64,000 bases of DNA, taken from contig LDXJ01000062.1 of assembly GCA_001029295.1 (NCBI GenBank), positions 62,001 to 126,000 on the forward strand. The letters run 5' to 3'. Position 1 is the first letter of the stretch; every line of letters begins with the position of its first letter. This document shows positions 11,343 through 46,269 of this stretch, one piece after another. Origin of the DNA: Peptococcaceae bacterium CEB3. Lineage in GTDB: Bacteria > Bacillota > Desulfitobacteriia > Desulfitobacteriales > Desulfitobacteriaceae. A program made the position numbers and the translations under genes. The notes under the pieces were generated by a model, which saw only the letters and a list, made by a program, of their open reading frames with translations, was not told where the DNA came from and did not search any database.

Positions 11343-12564
11343 ATGATAGGCAAAAGAATGCGGCATTTTAAACGCTACCGGGTCGTGGCATCCGTCATGG
11401 CCAGGCACTGGTGGAAGAGATAGGACTCTTCCACCTTCTCTCCCTGCCCAGACGGTTGTTCACGGATATGGAAGAGGAAGAGGCCGATGCCAAGTCCATC
11501 GGGCAGCGGGTTCGTGAGGTCTGTGAAGAACTCGGACCGACCTTTGTCAAGATAGGTCAGATGGCCAGCTCGAGGCCTGACCTGATTCTGGAGGGGATCA
11601 TAAAAGAACTGGCGAAGCTCCAGGATCAAGTGCCTCCTTTCTCTTCCGCTGAAGCGCGGGAAATCATCGAAGAAGAGATGGGACTCCCTTTAGACCGTGT
11701 TTTCCGTGAGTTTGAGGAGGCTCCTTTGGCCGCCGCTTCGATCGGACAAGTGCACCGGGGCGTGCTCTTGAGCGGAGCCGAGGTGGCCGTTAAAGTTCAG
11801 AGACCGGAGATTCGCGGCATCATTGAGACAGACCTGGAGATCCTGACGGATTTGGCGGTCCTGGCCGAACACCGCCTGGAATGGGCGGCCCGCTATCGCC
11901 TGAGCGAAATCGTCGAAGAATTCGGCCGCTCCCTCACTGCGGAAATGGATTACACCATTGAAGGGCGGAATGCCGAACGGATTGCAAAGCAATTCACGCA
12001 GGAGCCGTATATCTCGGCGAGACAGTCAACGATCTTTTTGCCGTTGCCTTTCGCCATCACATACGAATTCCCGCCGATCTCACCCTGGTCGGGAAATCTC
12101 TCCTCACTTTAGAAGGATTGGTGGAGACGCTCGATCCGGAGCTCAGCATCATGGACATCGCTCAGCCTTTTGGGCGACGGCTGCTCATGGAGCGTTTCCG
12201 GCCGTCCAACATCGCGGAGCAGGCCTGGCAAAATTTAAACGAGTACGGGGACATGGTCCTTGAACTTCCCAAACAACTCAAGGAACTCCTGCGCAATGCG
12301 CAGCGCGGGCGTTTAAGCTTGCAAATCCGCCTACCTGAGACGAATGATTTTCTGCGCAAACTGGACCGCATGACGAATCAGCTTTCGTTCAGCATCGTAT
12401 TGCTTTCCTTCAGCATTGTCATGGCGGGGCTCATCATTGCCTCCGCTCAGTCAACCCGTCCTATCCTGCTCTTTCACATTCCGGCGATCGAACTGGGCTT
12501 TGTCTTTGCAACGCTGATGTTTGTCTGGATGATCTTCGCCATCTTCCGCTCGGGAAGATTTTGA
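11343..12564 (+). pseudogene. AarF/UbiB (ABC1) kinase with internal deletion
   Basis: The gene starts MIGKRMRHFKRYRVVASVMARH, breaks frame near 11408, continues EEIGLFHLLSLPRRL and the conserved GPTFVKIGQMASSRPDL, and keeps the Ala-rich loop AAASIGQVH and the Lys segment AVKVQRPEIR. At about 12005 it jumps from the AERIAKQF helix to the C-terminal YLGETVNDLF region. The segment that should hold the HADPHPGN catalytic loop and the DFG motif is gone, about 400 nt by comparison with the usual length near 550 aa. The tail keeps two membrane helices. The protein cannot be an active kinase or ATPase. Confidence 0.85.
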
Positions 12565-12782
12565 ATACCCTAAAGTTGACTTTGCAGTGGGCGGTTTCGG
12601 CATAACTCATCCTCGGCCGTTCTGCATTACTTCCACGACATCGGCCTCGACGAAACTCTCCACCGGAGAGTTATGCCATTGAAGAGTCACGTTCTGCCTG
12701 AATGGCTCGCTTACTGCTGTATCCCTTGGGATATTCTCAGCCTTGGTTGTTCTCAGTATGGGGTTTCCACATTCTTCCCGGC

Positions 12783-12811
12783 TTGACGTTTGCCACAATT
12801 CGGAGTATGTT
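12783..12811 (+). promoter_or_regulatory. Promoter of the gntR-corrinoid protein unit
   Basis: TTGACG (12783-12788), 17-nt spacer, TATGTT (12806-12811). The predicted start near 12818 is directly followed by an operator. The 12565-12782 interval holds nothing else recognised. Confidence 0.65.
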
Positions 12812-12825
12812 GTTTCTTAGGGAGA

Positions 12826-12837
12826 TTGTCTATACAA
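12826..12837 (+). promoter_or_regulatory. Operator 3 of the GntR regulon (autoregulation)
   Basis: TTGTCTATACAA, the exact reverse complement of operator 1. It covers about +9 to +20 of the gntR transcript and lies about 100 nt before the gntR start codon. Confidence 0.7.
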
Positions 12838-12935
12838 ATCACGCAAGAGTCTTCGAGAGTCAGGGTGAGCTCAGAGGACGGGACAAGGGTGCTGGTGTTG
12901 AGCGGACTGAAGCTATAGAAGTGGGTGTTTTGACC

Positions 12936-13694
12936 ATGCAGGAAGGCGATTCGATTGACAAGAATTCAGTCATTCCCATATATTATCAGTTGGCCAAACT
13001 CATGAGGGAACAAATTCGGCGGGGAGAGTTTAAGCCGGGGGAAGCTCTGCCCACGGAAATCGAGATTGCCAACCGCTATGAAATCAGCCGGATGACGGTT
13101 AGGAGATCCATCGCAGAACTGGTAGCGGAAGGTATGGTCTATGCGCTTCAGGGAAAAGGGACTTTTGTGGCAAGTCCGAAGCTGGACAATGTAGTTTTCG
13201 AACTGAATAATTTCAGCCGGGAGATGGCCCAAAGAGGATTGAACTTCAAAACAACCCTTCTGCAAGCGAAGATCGTCCGGGCTGATGAAGAATTGAAAGA
13301 GAAATTCCGGCTGCTGGGTGGGGGAACGTACAGAATTCTGCACTTTCGCACGGTTACGTCTGCGGAAGACGAGCGCCTGAGCCTTGAAAACAAGTACATT
13401 ATTTACACCAAAAGCAAACCCCTTTTGGAGTCGGAACTAAATGATCCGACCTTGCCGGGCTTGATTGCTTCCCACAGCGACTACCTGCCGGTTAGCGCCA
13501 AGAAGGTTCTTAAGGCAGCGGTGGCGACCGATGAAGAAGCGACGCTGCTCGGGATCGCTGCCGGCGCTCCCCTGTTCCTGGTCGAGACGACTGTTTTTGA
13601 TCCGGACCTTAAGCCTGTTGGTTGGAGCAAGTCCATTTACCGAGGGGACAGGTATAAGATCACAAGCTATGATGGATGGTATCAAAAGGAGTAG
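12936..13694 (+). CDS. GntR-family transcriptional regulator, HutC subfamily
   Basis: A 252-aa regulator with an N-terminal winged helix (IPIYYQLAKLMREQIRRGEF, then ALPTEIEIANRYEISRMTVR, about residues 13-80) and a C-terminal UTRA effector domain (about 95-240). HutC-type proteins bind palindromes of the form found here (TTGTATAKACAA) and release DNA when a small ligand fills the UTRA pocket. ATG 12936 is the best start for the family length, though its ribosome site is weak; the frame is open further upstream, across the operator. It is followed 20 nt later by a corrinoid protein gene. I infer that it represses its own promoter and both methyltransferase operons. Confidence 0.88.
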   Translation: MQEGDSIDKNSVIPIYYQLAKLMREQIRRGEFKPGEALPTEIEIANRYEISRMTVRRSIAELVAEGMVYALQGKGTFVASPKLDNVVFELNNFSREMAQRGLNFKTTLLQAKIVRADEELKEKFRLLGGGTYRILHFRTVTSAEDERLSLENKYIIYTKSKPLLESELNDPTLPGLIASHSDYLPVSAKKVLKAAVATDEEATLLGIAAGAPLFLVETTVFDPDLKPVGWSKSIYRGDRYKITSYDGWYQKE

Positions 13695-35500: not shown

Positions 35501-35764
35501 ATGCTGAAATACTATGGATGGATGGATGTGAAAAAAATGCCTCGATTATCTGATTGTATAAATCTTTCGAATGAAATAAAATGGGTTCCAATCCCGGATC
35601 TGATTGTGAAAGCAAAGTCGCTGATAACAGCAAAGAGATATTCGCAGAGCACAATATGGCACTACAATGAAAGGTTCAATGATCTCCAATATAGCGCGGC
35701 CCTATTTAACACAGAAAAACTCTCGGAAAGATTTATTACTGATTTCAGTGCAGAAACCCCCTGA
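35501..35764 (+). pseudogene. Possible N-terminal fragment of a tyrosine recombinase
   Basis: An 87-codon frame with a helical pattern (PDLIVKAKSLITAKRYSQST then WHYNERFNDLQ) that resembles the SAM-like N-terminal domain of phage-type integrases. The catalytic domain is absent: the frame stops 100 nt before the next IS. If correct, it may be the relic of the integrase that used the tRNA-Thr site near 45871. The family call is weak. Confidence 0.35.
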
Positions 35765-35852
35765 TTTTTTGGTCCAAAGGCAGGAATTCGCCCCTGGTAT
35801 GCCGAATTGGTACAGTATGACGGAGATATTCTGAGGTATCAGAATGTAACTT

Positions 35853-37587
35853 GCGCATATGGTTATTTGAGGTGATGTTTGCCGTGTTTAGAGAAAATAC
35901 GTTACATAGACAAGAGAAATTGTTTAATAATTTGAGTGGAATGGACCCTCGCTATAAAAAGAGACTGGAAGAGAGTTGGGCCGGACTGTTTTATAAGCAT
36001 GTTTTTTGTCAGATTGACGAGAGGTTGTTTTCTCCTCTTTATTCGAGTGATAATGGACGTCCCAATTTTCCTATCAACATCTTGGTTGCGCTCGAAATCA
36101 TCAAGCATTTGAAGAACTTTACGGATGAAGTGCTTTTTGATGCGTTTGCCTACGACTTTCAAATTTCCTACGCCTTGGGCCTACGTAATATCGGCGAACG
36201 TTATTTTGCACGCAGAACCTTCTATGATTTTCGGGCCAGACTGTATCAATACACCTTGGAACACACCCCAAGGAAGGAAGTGTGATCTTTCAACAGTTTG
36301 AAACACTCGTTCAACACTTCATTGAAGTCGCTCAACTGGATACCGACGAACAGAGAATGGATTCAACTCAGATTATGTCGAACATCAAGCGGGCTGGGCG
36401 ACTCGCCTTGGCTTATGATGTTTTGCTTCAAGGAATCAAGGCATGTCCCTTGGAAATCCTTAGTTCTGAGTTTAAAGAGGTCTTAGATCCACATTACAAG
36501 ACGAATCTTCTCTATAAATTGAAAGATACCGAAGCCTCGTCACGCCTGGAAAAACTCCTGAATTTAGGCGGTGAATTGAGCCAACTTGTAAAAGACAACT
36601 TGGAATTACAAGGGCGTCTAGAAATTCAAGTACTCGTTCGCTTTATAAAGGAACAAACGGTTCATGATGACGAACGTAACGTGTGGCTCACTAAAGAAAA
36701 TAAAGATATCACCGCAAGTTCCCTTCAATCCGCTTTCGACGCAGAGGCAACGTATCGGAAAAAGGCGGGCAAGAGTCACGTTGGCTTTGTGGTCAATCTC
36801 ACCGAAACCTGCGCTGATAATAATCCTGTTCAAATTGTGACAGATTACCAAGTGGAGCCCAATAGCACAAATGATGTTAAAATGGCCGGTGAGAGTCTCG
36901 AAAAACTCCAAGGAACAACTCCAATGAACGATCTTTACGTGGACGGTGGGTATTATAGCAGCGATCTCGTGAAAAAAGCGGAAGGACAGGGAGTTCAACT
37001 CCATTACACGGATATGACGGGGCGGAACGTCACCTCGAACAAACTGCCTTACAACGTCTTTAATATTGAACACTTCGAAAGGATCTTGAGCTGTCCGAAA
37101 TTGCAGGAACCCTTGCGGAGTAACTTTGATTCCAAGAGCGGCATCTTGAGCGCTCACTTTGACCTAAACGTCTGTACTCCATGTCCCTTCAAGGATCAAT
37201 GTCCGGTCAAGTTTCATAAAAAGGATACCGTATTGCGCGTCAGTCAGAAAAGCCTCATGGCCGAAAATACTCGTTTAATCCTAATGGATAAAAAGGACCG
37301 AAGCGAAAACGGTAGTAAACGTGCCGCTATCGAAGGAACCAATTCCGCTTTTAAACGGGCCCATGGAGCTGGGAAACTTAAAGTTAGAGGTTTAGTACGC
37401 TGTAGTTTGGTCATGGGCTTGAAAACAATCGCTCATAACTTCCACCAGATCGTTCGTCTCCTCCAAGGTGATACTCGTCAAAAGTGCAGAAAAAATGCAG
37501 GCCTACACCAAGGGACACTTGCGACCATTTAGAGAAAATGACAGGTTGGAGAGAAGAAATACCCTCCTGCACCACGAAAATATGCGC
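35853..37587 (+). mobile_element. IS1182-family insertion sequence
   Basis: About 1.7 kb holding one split transposase gene. GCGCATAT near 35853-35860 is inverted at 37580-37587 (ATATGCGC) and may mark the ends, but the repeat is short and the borders are uncertain. Confidence 0.6.
35875..37532 (+). pseudogene. IS1182-family transposase, split by a frameshift
   Basis: The first frame (35875-36285) carries the DUF772-type N-terminal domain (NGRPNFPINILVALEIIKHL, FAYDFQISYALGLR). It stops at a point where the second frame (36282-37532, 416 aa) takes over by a -1 shift in AAGGAAGGAAGTGTGA. The second part has the DDE core (VDGGYYSSDLV, then a Cys cluster CTPCPFKDQCP, then EGTNSAFKRAHG). Members of this family are normally one protein of 500-560 aa, so this copy is either inactivated or depends on frameshifting. 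Confidence 0.8.
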
Positions 37588-37703
37588 TATTTTCTATGGA
37601 TATTCCGGATTTTGAGAAACACAGGATCCATGAACTGGTAAAATCAATTTGAGCGTACAATTAGGAGCGGGTCGGCCTACTATATCTTTAGACTTTTAGC
37701 ACT

Positions 37704-37901
37704 GGAATCATTGATAAGTTAAGCAAAAATATCAAAGATAAATGGTATATGCACTTTTGGGAAGAGAAAAATGTAATAGCCATTTTTAAAGGAAGAATTT
37801 TCAAATTTAATTACGATGATAAAGGATCTTGGAAAGCTGCAACAGAATACGGATTATCTATCGGCATACCTCACGAGCAATTAGACTTTCCTATTGGCTA
37901 G
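37704..37901 (+). pseudogene. Fragment of an unknown gene
   Basis: A 65-codon frame without a start codon (GIIDKLSKNIKDKWYMHFWE, later YDDKGSWKAATEYGLSIGIP) ending at 37901. The composition is AT-rich compared with neighbours. No family recognised. It looks like the 3' end of a gene cut by the IS. Confidence 0.35.
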
Positions 37902-38188: not shown

Positions 38189-38551
38189 ATGAATAACGTT
38201 GGACAACGTTTGGCCCGCCTCCGCGAACAGAAGGGCCTATCTCAGGCGGCTCTCGGCAAGCTGGTGGGGACAACCAACAAATACATTAACGACTTGGAGC
38301 ACGGGAGACCTGGCGGAATCGCGATCCTCGCCAAGATTGTGGCAATGCTCGACGTGCCGCTGGACGAAGTGTACCGGAAAGACAAGAAGGGAGACGAGAC
38401 TATGGAGAAACAAACGCTCATCGAAATCAACGGCTGCGTGGAAACGGACCTGGGCCACGACCAGTGGCTGGACGAATTTATCGACTGGCTGGAATCCCGT
38501 GGCGAATACTTTGGCGGGGGCACGAAAGACATCACGGATGAGCAGGAATGA
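38189..38551 (+). CDS. XRE-family regulator fused to a small C-terminal domain
   Basis: A 120-aa protein. Residues 1-65 form an XRE/Cro helix-turn-helix (GQRLARLREQKGLSQAALGK, GTTNKYINDLEHGRPGG). Residues 71-120, from MEKQTLIEINGCVETDLG to FIDWLESRGEYFGGGTKD, look like a separate small domain that I have seen as a stand-alone phage-type protein of unknown role. ATG 38189 follows TTAGAGGAGTAG, so it is coupled to the membrane protein gene. The cas operon begins about 120 bp later, so it may regulate it, which is inference. Confidence 0.8.
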   Translation: MNNVGQRLARLREQKGLSQAALGKLVGTTNKYINDLEHGRPGGIAILAKIVAMLDVPLDEVYRKDKKGDETMEKQTLIEINGCVETDLGHDQWLDEFIDWLESRGEYFGGGTKDITDEQE

Positions 38552-38671
38552 TCTAACAAAGAAATCGCCGGTGGGGAGAGCCATGCCATCTGCCACTGCA
38601 AGTATTTGTCCTTGGGATATAGTATACTGAATCTTGACGAAACAGGTTTTTTTAGCGAACGGAGTGAGAAC

Positions 38672-39388
38672 GTGATTATCCTACAGTTGCACGGTAAGGA
38701 GAACGTAACAGTGTCTCGCGAAGGGGTCCACGGCTTGATTCATCATTTATTGCCGACTGAGTATCATGAACAGGGGGTAGGCACCCAATTTGCAAACGGC
38801 GACAATATCAAGGCGCACACTTTTTGGGTTCCGTGCGGTGACTATGAGAAATACCAGCCCTTTCTCTTGGAAATTAGGGCATTAGGAATCACAGAACAAA
38901 ATCTATACAAAGCCCTTAAAAGTAAGGAATCCCTTACACTTGATGGCAAGGAGGTCAACATTGATTTATGCAGGCACTTTTCGGTAAAAGCTGAAGAAGT
39001 CCTCCGTACATTCATGCCAATCCTCGTGAGGAAATCCATGAAAAACGCGGCCTTTCTAAAGTACGGAAGCCCCGGCCAAAAAACAATATACTTGACGTAT
39101 AAGGATAACCCAGCAGCATGGCTGGAAACCGTAAAAAGTAATCTAGTTCGGCGTGCTGAAGCCATCATGGGCGGCGGATGGGTAGAACAAGCAGGTCCGC
39201 TGCATATTCGTGTCATTCAAGCCACAGATGCGAGAAGCCAATTACGGGGTAGGGTTGTAAGAGGTACGCGAGGCAAATTAGAAATAAAGGCGCCGTGGAA
39301 CGACATTGCTTTTAATTTATCCCTAGGGGAACGTTGTTCGTATGGGTTCGGTGTACTTGGGGGGGAGGCGTATGAGTCATGGACCTAA
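38672..39388 (+). CDS. cas6: Cas6 CRISPR RNA endonuclease
   Basis: A 238-aa RAMP-fold protein. Family signs are the early strand IILQLHGKENVTV, the His-containing GVHGLIHHLLP near residue 30, and the C-terminal Gly-rich loop LSLGERCSYGFGVLGG that contacts repeat RNA. Cas6 cuts the long CRISPR transcript inside each repeat, leaving the 8-nt tag (here TTTGAAAC) on every guide. GTG 38672 follows GGAGTGAG. It is first in the cas operon and overlaps cas8 by 10 bp. Confidence 0.85.
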   Translation: MIILQLHGKENVTVSREGVHGLIHHLLPTEYHEQGVGTQFANGDNIKAHTFWVPCGDYEKYQPFLLEIRALGITEQNLYKALKSKESLTLDGKEVNIDLCRHFSVKAEEVLRTFMPILVRKSMKNAAFLKYGSPGQKTIYLTYKDNPAAWLETVKSNLVRRAEAIMGGGWVEQAGPLHIRVIQATDARSQLRGRVVRGTRGKLEIKAPWNDIAFNLSLGERCSYGFGVLGGEAYESWT

Positions 39389-41073
39389 CGGTCGTTCTGC
39401 GAGATTTTGGTGTGCTCATTTCAGAAAGCCTCCGGAGCAAAAATTCCAGTCAAGGCAACATTTTTTCAGGTTCCCCGGAGGCCCGGTTGTTCCCGTTTTT
39501 TCCCGCGGCTTCATATTTCAGAAACCGGTCCTTTTACTGTTCGTCCGTATCAAAATCAGCTAGGGATGACTTTGACTATGACGTAGAAGTGTTGCCTGAG
39601 CAAAGCGCTTCGCCAGAGCAATCGTATCGAATTGCTTGTGATTGGTTCTATGTTCCTCCGAAAGCGAAGACGGTTTACGCGTCGGCTACGGGAAACTACA
39701 AAAATGTCAAGCCAGGAGCCTTATTTAGGGACAGGCAGCACATACTTGAGAACTTTGCAGACTCTCTGCCAGATGACTATATTTACAAAGAACTCTTGGC
39801 GGACATTGGGAGGGCGTTTAGGGAAACCCGCGTGGCGTTTGTTCAAGAAATAAATATTCCGGATAATGCCATAGTAACGATTGAGGTTAATCACGAAGGG
39901 GTTAGAGATCCCGTAATGGGCGACCCTGTATGCCAAAGGCAGTTGGTCAAGAATGTGTACGGCAGCGATACCAAAGGAAATTGCCCAATCTGCGGGCAAA
40001 GAAACGTAGCTCTGGTTCGAGGCAAAAGTACGGCATGGAAGCTCTTTACCATCACTAGAAAAACAAACGCGCATACATTTGACCGTTGCGAGTGTTGTGA
40101 AAACGCGATTGGTAATGCTGAAAAGTTTTTGGAAACGCATACGGTGGCTACTTACGCAAAAACGAAAGCAAAAAACACATGCCTTTTTATTCCAGCATCC
40201 GCTCAAGAAACAGTGCATACTGACCTTTGGTTTCATGACGTGGAGAAAACAAAAAAGCTCAAAGACACGCTGGATGAGCTTTCGACACTAGCGGGCGAAA
40301 CATATTTGGAAGCTGTCTATGCTCTACATGTTGTACTCGCAAAGTCTAATGCCGGAATAAATCTTTGGAATACCGAGGTAGAACGTATTGAAGGTTCGGT
40401 CATAAGACAAACAGAACAAACGATTGCGAGGGTTAACGAACTCGTTCCACACCCCGAGATTAGCAATCCCTTTTTTAGCTATTGGGAAATACCAGGTCTA
40501 GCACCGATGGTTTTCCGCCTCATACAAGGGAAGACGGATTTTCCCCTGCAAAGGCTGAGTGCCCTTTTGCGAAAGAGTGAGAACAAGGGCGGTGTAGGGT
40601 CTTTAGTCTGGTTGGAATTGTTTTATCTTACGGTTCAGAAGGGGGAAGAGTTTATGACGGCATTTAAGAACACAAAAGAATATGCCTTCGGGGAGCTGTT
40701 TAGGTTAGCTTTAAGGGTAGAGTATTTCGGCATGAACGGTAATTCTCGGCTAAAGGCAAAATTTGCAAATCCGCGTCCTCACCAAATAGAGAGCATCGGA
40801 CGCGAAGCCCTCGCGGTGATCCACCGGTATGAAAATTATCTTTCCAACGAAGAACGTAAAGAACTGTCGGAAATGATCGACAAAGTTGTTGGAGAGGAAG
40901 CCCAAAATACGGATCTTATGACGGAAAATCAGCGTATGATTGCTTTCTTCGCTGGAACTCAAAAATTGAGAATATCGGAAACCCTCAGGATAGAGGAAAA
41001 ACTGCGAAAGGCAGCCCAACAGACTAAGCAGGAAGGCCAGCAAGAGCCTGAAGTACAAGACGCAACGAAATAA
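39379..41073 (+). CDS. cas8b: Cas8 large subunit, type I-B-like
   Basis: A 564-aa protein with a zinc-finger-like set of Cys: C202 and C205 (NCPICGQRN) and C237, C239, C240 (DRCECCENA), typical of Cas8b large subunits. The rest is mostly helical. Cas8 recognises the PAM and holds the Cascade complex together. ATG 39379 overlaps the end of cas6. The assignment rests on length, the Cys pattern and the place between cas6 and cas7; sequence identity to known Cas8b is low by eye. Residues 30-75 are unusually Ser/Phe-rich. Confidence 0.75.
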   Translation: MDLTVVLRDFGVLISESLRSKNSSQGNIFSGSPEARLFPFFPAASYFRNRSFYCSSVSKSARDDFDYDVEVLPEQSASPEQSYRIACDWFYVPPKAKTVYASATGNYKNVKPGALFRDRQHILENFADSLPDDYIYKELLADIGRAFRETRVAFVQEINIPDNAIVTIEVNHEGVRDPVMGDPVCQRQLVKNVYGSDTKGNCPICGQRNVALVRGKSTAWKLFTITRKTNAHTFDRCECCENAIGNAEKFLETHTVATYAKTKAKNTCLFIPASAQETVHTDLWFHDVEKTKKLKDTLDELSTLAGETYLEAVYALHVVLAKSNAGINLWNTEVERIEGSVIRQTEQTIARVNELVPHPEISNPFFSYWEIPGLAPMVFRLIQGKTDFPLQRLSALLRKSENKGGVGSLVWLELFYLTVQKGEEFMTAFKNTKEYAFGELFRLALRVEYFGMNGNSRLKAKFANPRPHQIESIGREALAVIHRYENYLSNEERKELSEMIDKVVGEEAQNTDLMTENQRMIAFFAGTQKLRISETLRIEEKLRKAAQQTKQEGQQEPEVQDATK

Positions 41074-41093
41074 TGTTGAAGGAGGTAGTCCCC

Positions 41094-42224
41094 ATGCCAA
41101 GAAAATCTAAAAACGCACCTAAATCCGCAACAGCGATTACACCAAACACAACGGTTCAGGGATTGACACCGGAAGAAAAAGAAGAAGTACTTTTTTCTTT
41201 TATTGACAACCGGTTATTTGGGGCAATGATTCCTCAACCGGGAAAAGACTCTTTTTTTGCAGACTTCCAGTCGATTTATACGGGGGCAATACAAGTGCTG
41301 CCATCCATCTGTCCACACCCGATTGTTATTGAGGCAACCCAAGTAACTTCCCCTTTCAAAGATCGACAAGCTGAACCAACGGCAACGAAAGAAGAAAGGG
41401 ATAATGAGGAAGAGGAAAAAGACGAGAATAGTGAGACGCAAGGTAAACTATCTGGAGGTATGGGTTTCCGGTATACTGTGCCATATGCCCTGTATGTGGG
41501 CGGGGGCAGTTACAATGCAATGCGGGGAAAATCGTGTAGAACACAAGATCACGATTTAGAGTTGTTCGATGAGGGTGCAAAATTTGGTCCAATATTTGGT
41601 CGGAGCGCGACAAAAACATGGGTACAGCACATTGTCTATATTCACTTCGAGTACACAGATGGCAGTGATGGCGGATGGCGCGATCTTTTGAGACACGTCA
41701 AAATGACAGTTGAGAATAAGGAATCGGAAAACACGGTCGATCCATCGGCTCCCTATACTTCAGCCGATGTACAACTGGATGTTGACGGGCTTATAGCTTT
41801 CCTGAAAAAACCTGACAATGAAATCAGCAGAGTATCCTATTATATTCCAGACTATGCCGCCGAGGTCTATGCGGGTTTAGCAGCCCTAAAGAAGCAACTA
41901 GCAACCATGCCTGGGTTTGAAACGTATAAAGACTGTCGTTTACGCAATCAAGAGTACCTATGGATTACGGAAGTCCGTCATAGTTCAGCCAACGGTGATC
42001 CAGCGCTCGATAATCAGCCGCGTATGTTCTCTAATAGTCACGGATACTACACCCCTGAAAGATTTAAGCGTTGGGTTAGAGAATACCTAGGAGCGACGGG
42101 AGAAAAGATTTTCGTTTCACGTAAAGAGCTTGCCCTTGCGCCGAAAAAAGCGAGTCAACACCTTATAAAAAAGATGAACGAGGCTTTCCCTGATGGGAGC
42201 GGCAACGGCCTCATCGGGAAGTGA
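41094..42224 (+). CDS. cas7: Cas7 backbone protein
   Basis: A 376-aa RAMP-fold protein of the Cas7 (Csh2/DevR) type, whose copies line the guide RNA in Cascade. Signs are the N-terminal SIYTGAIQVLPSICPHPI, the Gly-rich MGFRYTVPYALYVGGGSYNA and the late LRNQEYLWITEVRHSSANGD. An acidic insert (EERDNEEEEKDENSE, about residues 101-115) is likely a surface loop. AAGGAGGT lies 9 nt before ATG 41094. It is coupled to cas5 by a TGATG overlap. Confidence 0.85.
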   Translation: MPRKSKNAPKSATAITPNTTVQGLTPEEKEEVLFSFIDNRLFGAMIPQPGKDSFFADFQSIYTGAIQVLPSICPHPIVIEATQVTSPFKDRQAEPTATKEERDNEEEEKDENSETQGKLSGGMGFRYTVPYALYVGGGSYNAMRGKSCRTQDHDLELFDEGAKFGPIFGRSATKTWVQHIVYIHFEYTDGSDGGWRDLLRHVKMTVENKESENTVDPSAPYTSADVQLDVDGLIAFLKKPDNEISRVSYYIPDYAAEVYAGLAALKKQLATMPGFETYKDCRLRNQEYLWITEVRHSSANGDPALDNQPRMFSNSHGYYTPERFKRWVREYLGATGEKIFVSRKELALAPKKASQHLIKKMNEAFPDGSGNGLIGK

Positions 42225-42937
42225 TGAATATGGCTATTCTAGTGATACTTGAGGGGATTTGGGCCCACTATCGCTCGGCCTGGACCAATCACTCCAATGC
42301 TTTAAGTTATCCGGCTCCGCCTCGGTCATCTCTTCTTGGTATGGCTGGAGCAGCCCTGGGCCTTGCTTATCGCGAAATAGCTACATGGGACTCTGTTTTG
42401 GAAATGGGATTTATGTGGGATACAGCGGTCACAGAAACCGTCACACAAGTGCGCAGATATAAGATCGAAACGCCGAGTGAGGAAAACTACCTAAAACCAC
42501 TGGAATATACAAAAAATCCCACACTGGATACGGTTTCCTATCTGCACCATCCCGGTATTCCCACCCGGTTACGCGGAAAATGGCTAATCGTTGCATTCAC
42601 TGAGAAGGATGAAGCAAAACTCTACGAAGCACTTGTGCATCCCGTCTATCCTTTATCCTTTGGCAGTTCAGAAGCACTTGCACGCATTGTTGACGTCAGG
42701 AAGGTTGAGGCAAATAGAACGGATGGCCCCATAACGACGTTGTCCAGCGTTCCCTGTGATGAATTGCTTCACAGTCAAAACGCTGTACCCTCTGTCATGG
42801 CACGGAGATACCAGAGGTATGGGGAATGGCTGGATCATACGCGAGTTTGGACACCGATTGACCAAAGCCCCCTTACAAATATTACGCCAAAATTTGGTGC
42901 ATACAAGGTTGGAGGGGATATTTTTGCAGTCCTGTAA
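42224..42937 (+). CDS. cas5: Cas5 protein
   Basis: A 237-aa RAMP-fold protein that caps the 5' end of the guide in Cascade. The opening MAILVILEGIWAHYRSAWT and the Pro-rich SYPAPPRSSLLGMAGAALGL are the usual Cas5 N-terminal signature. ATG 42224 overlaps the cas7 stop; ATG 42230, with GGGAAG upstream, is an alternative, as is GTG 42221. It overlaps cas3 by 14 bp. Confidence 0.88.
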   Translation: MNMAILVILEGIWAHYRSAWTNHSNALSYPAPPRSSLLGMAGAALGLAYREIATWDSVLEMGFMWDTAVTETVTQVRRYKIETPSEENYLKPLEYTKNPTLDTVSYLHHPGIPTRLRGKWLIVAFTEKDEAKLYEALVHPVYPLSFGSSEALARIVDVRKVEANRTDGPITTLSSVPCDELLHSQNAVPSVMARRYQRYGEWLDHTRVWTPIDQSPLTNITPKFGAYKVGGDIFAVL

Positions 42938-45206
42938 CCCGTTTTATTCTCATCCTAACATACTTCTAACCCAGCATGTGCAGAACATGCTGGCCTCTGC
43001 CCAAGTTCCAAGTCCATTCGAAGAGAATCAGGTTGACAACCTGGTAGAGAGAGCAATCAAACTTCACGATGACGGTAAGAAGTTCTCTCTCTTTCAAGCA
43101 AGAATGAAAAGAGTTATGATGGGCTATCCAACGACATCAAGACACCCACTGGATCAACATTCTCGCATAAGTGCACTGTGGGCATTCAAGGAATTGGTAA
43201 GGACAGATCTCGAAAACCAAGATATTTTCAAGATAGTCGAAATGATTCTGGGGCACCACACGGGTCTAATTTGCGATCCCCAACAAGCATATGATGTCCT
43301 GAGTCGTTACGCTGCTCAGGTTAAATTACAAGATGACTTGTGGGATGAATTAGGCTTTTCGGAAGACGATCGTGAGCGGCTAAAAAAGATAAAGAGCGCA
43401 GAAAGTCATCGCATATTCCAACTGGAAGAAGAAGAACGCAGATGCGAAAAAATCTATTTACAGCAGGCATTTTCAAGGCTCGTCGATGTCGACCGGCTCA
43501 GTGCAGAACGCCAAGGAGGATTTGAAGTGGCCGATACTCTCCCTTTCAAGCATGGCCAAGAGATAGCAAAGCACAGGCTGGAAAAAAGTCAGGACTTGAC
43601 CAATAACAATCTGTTGAGTAACGTTCGGGCTATGGTCGAGAAAGAACTTCTTTCCTGGCGAGAACAACCACCTGTAGGAATATACTCTGTAGGTTTGCCA
43701 ACAGGTGTTGGGAAAACTCTTGTGGCCTTGCAGTTGGCCGAATGGTGGACTGCACCCGCTGTTATCGTTGCTCCCTATATGGCACTTCTTGATCAGACGG
43801 AAAAAGTACTGCTTGCAGACGCTAAGGTTTCACATGAAGGCGTTATTGTCGATCATCATCTGTCGCTCCCGTCTCAGGAACAAGGTTGCGGAAGAACTGG
43901 GAAAAACGAAGACGAAGCGGAAGATGAAGAGTATCACGATGTAAGTCCATGGACAGAAACAGAGCGGTGGCACGGGAAATTCACTCTTACAACGACTGTC
44001 CGTTTTTTTGAGGACTTATTCTCAATGAAGCCGACGGACTTGCGGAAGTGGCATAACACATATGGGGCAACCATTGTCCTCGATGAACCGCAGTCCATTC
44101 CAACGGGTCCTTGGCTGGGATTTACAAAGTTATTACCACTGTGGGTTGAGGCATATCAATGGAGAGTCGTTTTGCTTTCCGCTACACTACCCAAACAACC
44201 AGAAGGAACCATTCCTTTGATAAAGGCACCGGTCCAAACGCTATCCCGTACCCAGATCGCGCTCTACCCTAAAATACTTGAGGAATCCGAAGAAGACGTT
44301 ACACAATGGGCACAACTGGCACAAACGTGCACAGACAATGCGGCTGAGGCATTATGGATGCTAAACACCGTAAATCGTGCTCAAGCAGTCTACAATCAGG
44401 CTCAAGTTCTGTATAAAGATTCTACTCGCAAGATAGAGTTCATTTCCGGTGAATTGTGTCCTCTGCACAGAGCGGTAGTGTATAATCGAATCGAATCCTA
44501 TATGGGCAAAGGCACACCGTTTGTCTTGGTATCAACGACAGCTATTGAAGCAGGGGTAGACTATGATTTTCAGGCTATCATTCGGGAATTGGCCCCCTTA
44601 CCGAACTGCATTCAGGCTGCGGGTCGTCTGAACCGGAAGGGAAATTCCGAAACGAAAACTCTGTGGATCATTGAAACAAAAGGCCCAACGGAACCTTATT
44701 CGGCAAGAGATATTTCGTTAACTCGTGAAATACTGAACATCTATGACAAACTCATTCCGGAGTCAGACTATACGAAAGTAGTTGGCGAATACTACCAAAA
44801 CGCCACCAGAGATCGAAAAATCTTAGGGGAACAGGACAAGGTTCTCGAAGCATTTGATAAAGACGAACCAATTAAGTTAATTAAAGATGATATATGGAGG
44901 GAGTCTGTAGTTATCAACATTTTGCCCTCCATTTTCGGAGAAGACGAACTGCGCGAGGGATGGAAGCGTGTTGTTCGCGGATACCCGTATCAAACGGCTC
45001 AGGATTTATACACTCAATGGGAAGAGATCAAGAAAGTACGTATAAGAAATCCCTTATACAACAAGAAGAGAGAAACGATTCGGTTGCTAGGGTTATACAT
45101 GGCCAACCTAAAAACAAAGAGAATTGCTGGCACCGCTAAAGGGATTAAAATTCGCTCTACAGGGTACGGTGTAAGCGGGGCAAACGATGTCGTCGATACA
45201 TGGTAG
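42924..45206 (+). CDS. cas3: Cas3 nuclease-helicase
   Basis: A 760-aa fusion of an HD nuclease and an SF2 helicase. HD motif: QHVQNML near residue 13, LHDDGKK with H48-D49, and GHHTG around residue 111. Helicase motifs: Walker A GLPTGVGKT (about 257-265), DEPQ at 387, SATLP, VSTTAIEAGVDYDF and QAAGRLNRKG. It unwinds and shreds DNA recruited by Cascade. TTG 42924 is the right start: GGAGGGG lies 6 nt upstream, within the end of cas5. Earlier in-frame starts would run back through cas5. No cas4, cas1 or cas2 follows. Confidence 0.93.
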   Translation: MQSCNPFYSHPNILLTQHVQNMLASAQVPSPFEENQVDNLVERAIKLHDDGKKFSLFQARMKRVMMGYPTTSRHPLDQHSRISALWAFKELVRTDLENQDIFKIVEMILGHHTGLICDPQQAYDVLSRYAAQVKLQDDLWDELGFSEDDRERLKKIKSAESHRIFQLEEEERRCEKIYLQQAFSRLVDVDRLSAERQGGFEVADTLPFKHGQEIAKHRLEKSQDLTNNNLLSNVRAMVEKELLSWREQPPVGIYSVGLPTGVGKTLVALQLAEWWTAPAVIVAPYMALLDQTEKVLLADAKVSHEGVIVDHHLSLPSQEQGCGRTGKNEDEAEDEEYHDVSPWTETERWHGKFTLTTTVRFFEDLFSMKPTDLRKWHNTYGATIVLDEPQSIPTGPWLGFTKLLPLWVEAYQWRVVLLSATLPKQPEGTIPLIKAPVQTLSRTQIALYPKILEESEEDVTQWAQLAQTCTDNAAEALWMLNTVNRAQAVYNQAQVLYKDSTRKIEFISGELCPLHRAVVYNRIESYMGKGTPFVLVSTTAIEAGVDYDFQAIIRELAPLPNCIQAAGRLNRKGNSETKTLWIIETKGPTEPYSARDISLTREILNIYDKLIPESDYTKVVGEYYQNATRDRKILGEQDKVLEAFDKDEPIKLIKDDIWRESVVINILPSIFGEDELREGWKRVVRGYPYQTAQDLYTQWEEIKKVRIRNPLYNKKRETIRLLGLYMANLKTKRIAGTAKGIKIRSTGYGVSGANDVVDTW

Positions 45207-45297: not shown

Positions 45298-45327
45298 TTG
45301 ACCCGTGGCTCAGTAACAGGGTAAAAT
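45298..45327 (+). promoter_or_regulatory. CRISPR leader promoter
   Basis: TTGACC (45298-45303), 18-nt spacer, TAAAAT (45322-45327), directly before the first repeat. The start point would fall at the edge of the array. The leader region 45207-45329 holds nothing else recognised. Confidence 0.6.
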
Positions 45328-45329
45328 GG

Positions 45330-45627
45330 GTTTTGAGGGTACCTATGAGGGTTTGAAACGATGGTAACGCTGTCAGGTTAACCTGTGCACCCGTCGTTTT
45401 GAGGGTACCTATGAGGGTTTGAAACTCCGGGATGTACTCGAACCCGTGATTGTGAAAGTTAACGTTTTGAGGGTACCTATGAGGGTTTGAAACCAGAATA
45501 TCGGTTTGCCGTCTAGCCATCCAGCGACGGGTTTTGAGGGTACCTATGAGGGTTTGAAACATTTACGGATTTCCATTGCCGCAACCCTCCAATTCGCGTT
45601 TTGAGGGTACCTATGAGGGTTGGAAAC
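45330..45627 (+). CRISPR. CRISPR array, 5 repeats and 4 spacers
   Basis: Repeats of 30 nt start GTTTTGAGGGTACC and end GAGGGTTTGAAAC, at 45330, 45396, 45464, 45531 and 45598. Spacers are 36, 38, 37 and 37 nt. The last repeat carries one change (TTTGAAAC to TTGGAAAC), the usual sign of the trailer end, so the leader is on the cas3 side and transcription runs rightward. The repeat shape fits type I-B. With Cas6 cutting before the last 8 nt, each guide keeps a TTTGAAAC handle. Confidence 0.97.
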
Positions 45628-45690
45628 ATGGTATTCTTCGGCCAAGATGGCGATCTACAAGGAAAATTGCGCGCGAAACGGAATTCACTA

Positions 45691-45773
45691 TTGACATTTG
45701 GGGATCACATGTTAAAATAAGTCCTGTGCTGCAATTACTGCAACCGATACTGCAACAGGATCCAAATGTTGCA
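45691..45773 (+). promoter_or_regulatory. Promoter followed by iterated TGCAA motifs
   Basis: TTGACA (45691-45696), 16-nt spacer, TAAAAT (45713-45718). Directly after come TGCAA at 45730, 45739 and 45751 and the inverted TTGCA at 45769. No gene follows; next is the tRNA-Thr fragment. It may be the promoter and operator of a lost gene, or of the tRNA operon. Confidence 0.5.
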
Positions 45774-45870
45774 GTATAAAGCAGGATACCGAAGATAGGC
45801 GAACTACGAAAACCCTTTAGAATAGCCCTGTTCAGGGTGACAAAGATTACTTCAGGAGGTCTATCAGCTC

Positions 45871-45916
45871 CTTTGTAATCAGCAGGTTGCGGGTTCGAGT
45901 CCCATCGTCGGCTCCA
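45871..45916 (+). pseudogene. tRNA-Thr 3' half, probable integration (att) site
   Basis: From the anticodon loop onward (TTTGTAATCAGC, anticodon TGT) through the T arm (GGGTTCGAGTCCC) to GGCTCCA, the sequence is that of a tRNA-Thr. Everything upstream of the loop is unrelated: the 5' half of the anticodon stem reads GCTCC instead of GCTGA, and no D arm or acceptor strand is present. A break at the anticodon loop with an intact 3' end is typical of tyrosine-recombinase integration, so this is likely one att end of an island. Confidence 0.75.
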
Positions 45917-45953
45917 GCTTATACTACTAATGAGTTGACTCAATTCTTTACGC

Positions 45954-46037
45954 GGGCAGGTGGCCGAGTGGTTAAAGGCGGCAGACTGTAAATCTGTTCC
46001 GGAAGGTACGGTGGTTCGAATCCATCCCTGCCCACCA
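45954..46037 (+). tRNA. tRNA-Tyr (GTA)
   Basis: Acceptor GGGCAGG pairs with CCTGCCC, the anticodon loop CTGTAAA gives GTA, and a long variable arm and encoded CCA are present. Confidence 0.95.
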
Positions 46038-46042
46038 ATTCA

Positions 46043-46106
46043 GAGGTCAGAAGTCAGAGGTCGGAGGTCAGAAACCAGAGATTCAGAAGTCAGAGGTCGG
46101 AGGTCG
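46043..46106 (+). repeat. GARGTCR heptamer repeats after tRNA-Tyr
   Basis: Tandem 7-nt units GAGGTCA, GAAGTCA, GAGGTCG, GAGGTCA, GAAACCA, then after a break GAAGTCA, GAGGTCG, GAGGTCG. Same family as the blocks at 2335 and 61233. It begins 6 nt after the tRNA CCA. Confidence 0.85.
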
Positions 46107-46194
46107 GACGGTTTCCGACATAAATATTGAGACAAAGTAGGAAACGATTCCGGAAATTCCGACTATCGACTTATTGTCTGAGACAATTGATTAG

Positions 46195-46269
<75 letters not shown>

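Follow-up and report, generated by a model that had tools for sequence, protein, structure and literature searches.

A tRNA-Thr 3′ half as the right attachment site of a probable integrative and conjugative element in Peptococcaceae bacterium CEB3

The draft genome of Peptococcaceae bacterium CEB3 (G000; 5.3 Mb, 64 contigs) carries the 3′ half of a tRNA-Thr gene ahead of tRNA-Tyr, which raises two questions: how this partial gene arose, and how much of the DNA to its left came in with an insertion. We analysed a stretch of 64,000 nucleotides around it, referred to here as the window (C62:62001-126000; Table 1). An earlier note, made from the sequence of the window, had described a tRNA intact from the anticodon loop to CCA with unrelated DNA upstream, and had proposed one att end of a tyrosine-integrase element. 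The description is correct except that the piece starts at 45872, one base later than the 45871 given there. Positions 45872-45916 are the 3′ 45 nt of tRNA-Thr(TGT), identical to its positions 32-76, and ARAGORN called tRNA-Tyr (45954-46037) and tRNA-Met (46195-46269) but no tRNA-Thr ahead of tRNA-Tyr in the window. Short GTCAGAGGTCGGA-type repeats, which recur widely in this genome and its relatives, follow tRNA-Tyr at 46033-46108.

Table 1. Coordinates of features in the window, on both sides of the junction
Feature	Position	Strand	Remarks
IS1182-family insertion sequence, multicopy	35734..37710	+	Possible site of a crossover or misjoin where element DNA meets rpoD-linked DNA
Type I-B-like cas operon	38189..45206	+	XRE regulator, cas6, large-subunit candidate, cas7, cas5, cas3; probable element cargo
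CRISPR array	45331..45629	+	5 repeats, 4 spacers, last repeat degenerate; distal end ~20 bp before the conserved right-end block
Right-end block	45650..45792	+	143 bp, 87% identical in the sister species, beside tRNA-Tyr
Predicted outward promoter	45691..45718	+	TTGACA-16-TAAAAT with TG before the second hexamer, 11/12; out of the element towards tRNA-Tyr
Three TACTGCAAC copies	45736..45776	45736+, 45748+, 45768-	Candidate integrase arm-type sites
CAGCT plus 2 mismatches	45865..45871	+	Similarity extending left into the anticodon stem, element-supplied; 96% match over 45865-45918
attR core	45872..45918	+	47 nt identical to the attL copy; first 45 nt = tRNA-Thr(TGT) 32-76
Host side of the junction	45954..46269	+	tRNA-Tyr and tRNA-Met, then rpmG, secE, nusG, rplK

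Exactly one other place in the 5.3-Mb assembly matches the tRNA-Thr piece, and it is an intact tRNA-Thr(TGT) gene on contig C54 (43281-43356; L002 1503-1578, minus strand), which excludes a chance match. The identity is exact over 47 nt, and a wider alignment covers 54 nt (96%, 45865-45918, E 1.3e-18); at the corresponding leftward extension of the core, related right ends likewise have TCAGCT or TCAACT. The intact gene was identified as attL. In the sense of the tRNA, the order on C54 is tRNA-Thr, a hairpin, and the 3′ end of an integrase gene convergent with the tRNA, ~120 bp away. This gene (C54 41930-43162) encodes a tyrosine integrase of 410 aa with domains PF00589 and PF14659, for which plasmids gave only distant matches (~30% identity). 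Thus, the restored tRNA-Thr that the earlier note had supposed to be outside the window or lost is present, with an integrase beside it. The hairpin is followed by a T run, has a predicted energy of -20.4 kcal/mol that 2/200 shuffles equalled, and would terminate the tRNA-Thr transcript. The genes on the other side of the tRNA are presumably sigH, rlmB, thyX, mrnC and cysS, names that we assigned ourselves. A second related integrase in the same genome, on C34 (L071 6016-7852), is located at tRNA-Thr(CGT), where a hairpin and GTTGCAAC repeats also occur, and is part of another element of the same family; the right end of that element was not found.

Comparison with other genomes places the original tRNA-Thr gene at this junction, as had been supposed from gene order. 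The site is empty in 12 relatives, in which tRNA-Thr and tRNA-Tyr are 6-22 nt apart and the Thr/Tyr/Met order is unbroken. The nearest relative among the genomes searched, Acididesulfobacillus acetoxydans (G001; closed, 4.52 Mb), belongs to the same genus and has a filled site. Its chromosome is collinear with the C54 flank from sigH outward (787.4 kb down to 760 kb) and with the window from tRNA-Tyr onward (858.8 kb upward), which means that C54 and C62 each carry one half of a single interrupted locus. Between these flanks, A. acetoxydans has an intact tRNA-Thr (787.84 kb), the C-terminal part of the integrase (94% identical), ~71 kb of further DNA, the 143-bp right-end block and tRNA-Tyr (858795). 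Both element ends thus lie on one chromosome there, 71 kb apart, and in the present draft on C54 and C62. The sister species lacks the tRNA-Thr 3′ piece that forms the attR core, as well as the 5′ part of the integrase gene, and two of its three arm sites are mutated. The island interiors of the two genomes have almost nothing in common, and the right-end block has nevertheless been retained; we conclude that the content was exchanged or degenerated and that the ends persisted. In another relative (G011:C206 ~12521-12995; L073 3522-3996, also L048 1162-1545), three degenerate tRNA-Thr copies stand in tandem, ~105 bp apart, between an intact tRNA-Thr(TGT) and tRNA-Tyr. These copies could be stacked att remnants or the product of local tandem duplication.

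The flanks of the two core copies share a further signal. All three occurrences of TACTGCAAC in the 64-kb window fall within 41 bp in the right-end block, against 0.35 expected, and 0/100 shuffles reached three. Two more copies lie between tRNA-Thr and the integrase gene on C54, and A. acetoxydans has them in the same place too. Their position on both flanks is what would be expected of arm-type sites of the C54 integrase, and we regard them as candidates for this role. A positive control is provided by G022, in which a 41-kb prophage occupies tRNA-Thr(CGT). It resembles the present element in its related integrase (64% identical), in a 45-nt core at both ends that starts in the anticodon loop, in doubled GTTGCAAC arm repeats at both ends, and in a hairpin after the restored tRNA. 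Homologous right ends also occur in G014 (two) and G048, where they adjoin pieces of tRNA-Thr(CGT), again with a core that begins in the anticodon loop and a homologous arm array. The elements of these three genomes differ from this one in that they use another tRNA-Thr isoacceptor, have a terminator and not essential genes behind them, and lack a strong outward promoter.

The start of the core in the anticodon loop, the arm repeats and the right ends in G022, G014 and G048 together identify the junction as an attR produced by tyrosine recombination. We consider it highly probable that an integrative element, most likely of the integrative and conjugative kind (ICE), was inserted in the 3′ half of tRNA-Thr(TGT) by a tyrosine recombinase and that the piece in the window is its attR. 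The target would have been the operon tRNA-Thr/tRNA-Tyr/tRNA-Met/rpmG, with recombination in the anticodon-loop region. Because the element would bring its own copy of the tRNA-Thr 3′ half, recombination would leave a whole tRNA-Thr at the integrase end (attL, on C54) and the displaced original 3′ half at attR, in the window.

The demonstrable body of the element (integrase, S24-type repressor and type IV secretion system (T4SS) genes) is on C54 and amounts to 43 kb, and most of the insert is therefore outside the window. In C54 1-43280 we identified genes for the S24-type repressor, a RecD2 helicase, a protein with a CHC2 primase domain, T4SS components and the integrase. The T4SS parts are a VirB4/TraC-like ATPase of 709 aa, an SLT transglycosylase, TraX and a TrbC/VirB2-like pilin candidate, and the C54 element is most likely an ICE. 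A VirD4-like protein (T4SS-DNA_transf) is encoded only on C46, which is tied to C54 solely through a TnpB repeat. The proteins scanned, which represent part of the open reading frames, included no relaxase. The TnpB repeat starts C54 and also ends C31 and C46, and the repeat overlaps among these three contigs permit more than one path, including a circular C31. C31 (L088-L089; 39.6 kb) has ends that overlap each other by 283 exact bases and overlaps C54 by 910; it may represent either a circular element or an internal section of the ICE. We infer that the element is conjugative, that it carries CRISPR-Cas as cargo, and that its right-end promoter and left-end terminator serve the interrupted operon as described below.

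To the left of attR, beyond the CRISPR array, the cas operon and the IS1182-family insertion sequence, the window contains a sugar-uptake operon and corrinoid methyltransferase genes (86% identical to A. acetoxydans at 1.555-1.565 Mb), and further left a tRNA-Val/Glu/Met/Asn cluster followed by rpoD, dnaG, glyQS and era. The rpoD core block is found in A. acetoxydans at 4.49-4.52 Mb on the opposite strand, and collinearity with that genome ends at the tRNA-Val cluster (window 2698; cluster tRNA-Asn/Met/Glu/Val 2172-2698). Since the rpoD region is distant and inverted in the sister genome, the contig joins two places, by rearrangement or by misassembly. A related integrase occurs at tRNA-Val(CAC) in G021 (L075), and the tRNA-Asn/Met/Glu/Val cluster of the window may be a second integration hot spot.

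The multicopy IS1182-family element is likely to have given rise to rearrangement or misassembly of the genome. It is present in more than 12 copies, and no clear target-site duplication was seen at the copy in the window. The rpoD/attR junction would result either from one inversion that broke within the element or from a misjoin at the insertion sequence. We put at slightly below even the chance that the contig is misassembled at this copy, in which case no inversion took place and the true neighbour of 37.7-45.87 kb is the ICE body. Most of the 99%-identical partial copies lie at contig ends, which makes a join through the insertion sequence suspect, and both att ends are collinear in the sister genome; against this, no direct sign of a misjoin was detected, and the rpoD side is reversed relative to the sister just as one inversion through the element would leave it. 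If the inversion is real, attL and attR would be inverted relative to each other, which would prevent excision of the element in circular form.

Integration at tRNA-Thr deprives tRNA-Tyr, tRNA-Met and rpmG of the promoter that precedes tRNA-Thr, and the right-end block contains a sequence that could replace it. Sites matching the sigma-70 consensus at 11/12 positions are rare, with only 8 in the 64 kb on both strands, and one of them points out of the element towards tRNA-Tyr (Table 1). Both hexamers are identical in A. acetoxydans, in which the core is deleted, the integrase truncated and two of three arm sites mutated; such agreement of the promoter bases does not exceed what the 87% overall identity predicts (P = 0.12). 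Both Acididesulfobacillus right ends have such a site, whereas the four related right ends at tRNA-Thr(CGT) have none of comparable strength. The promoter stretch had no match among viral contigs and, among genome contigs, matched A. acetoxydans only. For tRNA-Tyr, one match is listed per genome in CEB3 and A. acetoxydans. The predicted promoter would take the place of the tRNA-Thr promoter for a single-copy tRNA-Tyr and the genes behind it, and the hairpin at the left end would close the tRNA-Thr transcript. Because conservation alone is not significant, we put forward as a proposal that the essential tRNA-Tyr gene is now probably driven by a promoter at the element end.

It is also possible, if less probable, that the outward promoter serves the element itself in its circular form or is a chance occurrence, and that tRNA-Tyr is read through from inside the island. 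The block that contains the promoter does lie within the element end, and a 10/12 promoter site at 45298, before the CRISPR array, means that the CRISPR leader could drive the tRNAs as an alternative. In the circle, however, the promoter would face the 3′ end of the integrase gene, directed against that gene and through the left-end terminator, and the sister species, which lacks this cas operon and no longer has the attR core, the 5′ part of the integrase gene or two of the arm sites, has retained the promoter beside tRNA-Tyr. We give even odds to promoter replacement in its full form, in which the left end terminates the tRNA-Thr transcript and the right end restarts the operon, so that the element can live inside an essential tRNA and ribosomal operon. 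The host in the sister species would then have been left dependent on the element end, with the promoter kept while the attR core, the 5′ part of the integrase gene and two arm sites were lost.

The CRISPR-Cas locus left of the right-end block is probably cargo of the element. The best PADLOC matches of the cas operon are Cas7b, Cas5/Cas5b, Cas3b and Cas6, with NCBIfam scores mostly under the cut-offs, and inspection and family scans revealed no cas1 or cas2 among open reading frames of at least 90 aa at 38.2-45.9 kb. The large-subunit candidate (564 aa) had no PADLOC or NCBIfam match and occurs in no other of 73 genomes of the order, which fits cargo. The CRISPR spacers matched only themselves among the loci compared. 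Of the window, only ~37.7-45.87 kb, which comprises this CRISPR-Cas system without cas1/2 and then attR, is likely to be element DNA.

The earlier note had taken all accessory DNA to the left of the tRNA piece (CRISPR, insertion sequence and catabolic operons) as the inserted material, and this part of it does not stand, as that DNA is not one insert. A single contiguous island at tRNA-Thr is unlikely. In its favour, the sister genome has no DNA counterpart of 26.6-45.65 kb except for IS-like repeats, but the contig runs on leftward into rpoD, dnaG, glyQS and era, a block found at 4.49-4.52 Mb on the other strand of the sister chromosome. The integrase and the T4SS genes lie on C54, and the insertion sequence at 35734-37710 provides a ready point for crossover or misjoin. 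The catabolic operons left of the insertion sequence are best described as accessory DNA of uncertain origin.

A chance match or a decayed duplicate tRNA gene is rejected as the source of the tRNA-Thr piece by the att architecture and the genome comparison, and the second of these, tandem duplication and degeneration with no integrase, is very improbable even though local duplication occurs in the family (the degenerate copies in G011), because the piece begins at the same point of the anticodon loop as the G022 prophage and the G014 and G048 right ends, its flank has the arm repeats of the C54 integrase end, and sigH and tRNA-Thr, the remainder of the operon, adjoin the integrase on a different contig.

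The attR reading fits a well-known group of ICEs, prophages and islands that occupy tRNA 3′ halves, such as ICEBs1 in trnS-leu2 (PMC3715440). The present element shares with these a tyrosine integrase by the restored tRNA, a direct-repeat core that corresponds to the tRNA 3′ end, and a displaced 3′ half at the far end (PMC3715440). It differs in that the target is tRNA-Thr(TGT) within an operon and that the far end parts tRNA-Tyr, tRNA-Met and rpmG from their promoter. Supply of a promoter to a host gene by an element end would be shared with the dusA-associated islands, for which -10/-35 sites are predicted ahead of the target gene in the empty as well as in the occupied state (PMC4482086). 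Those islands replace the 5′ end of a protein gene, whereas here the element entered a tRNA, and the promoter is directed at the operon genes that follow. Searches of an open-access library gave no direct match for a promoter-bearing element end within a tRNA operon.

The junction is an ordinary and well-supported att junction of a known kind, to which the present analysis adds a corrected extent of the insert and promoter replacement as a testable proposal. The analysis establishes where a probably conjugative element of an acidophilic sulfate reducer really ends, and it illustrates that a position beside an att scar is not sufficient ground for counting accessory genes as part of the insert. 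Should the promoter reading be true, this locus would be a checkable case of an element that entered the middle of an essential operon and whose end could then no longer be lost.
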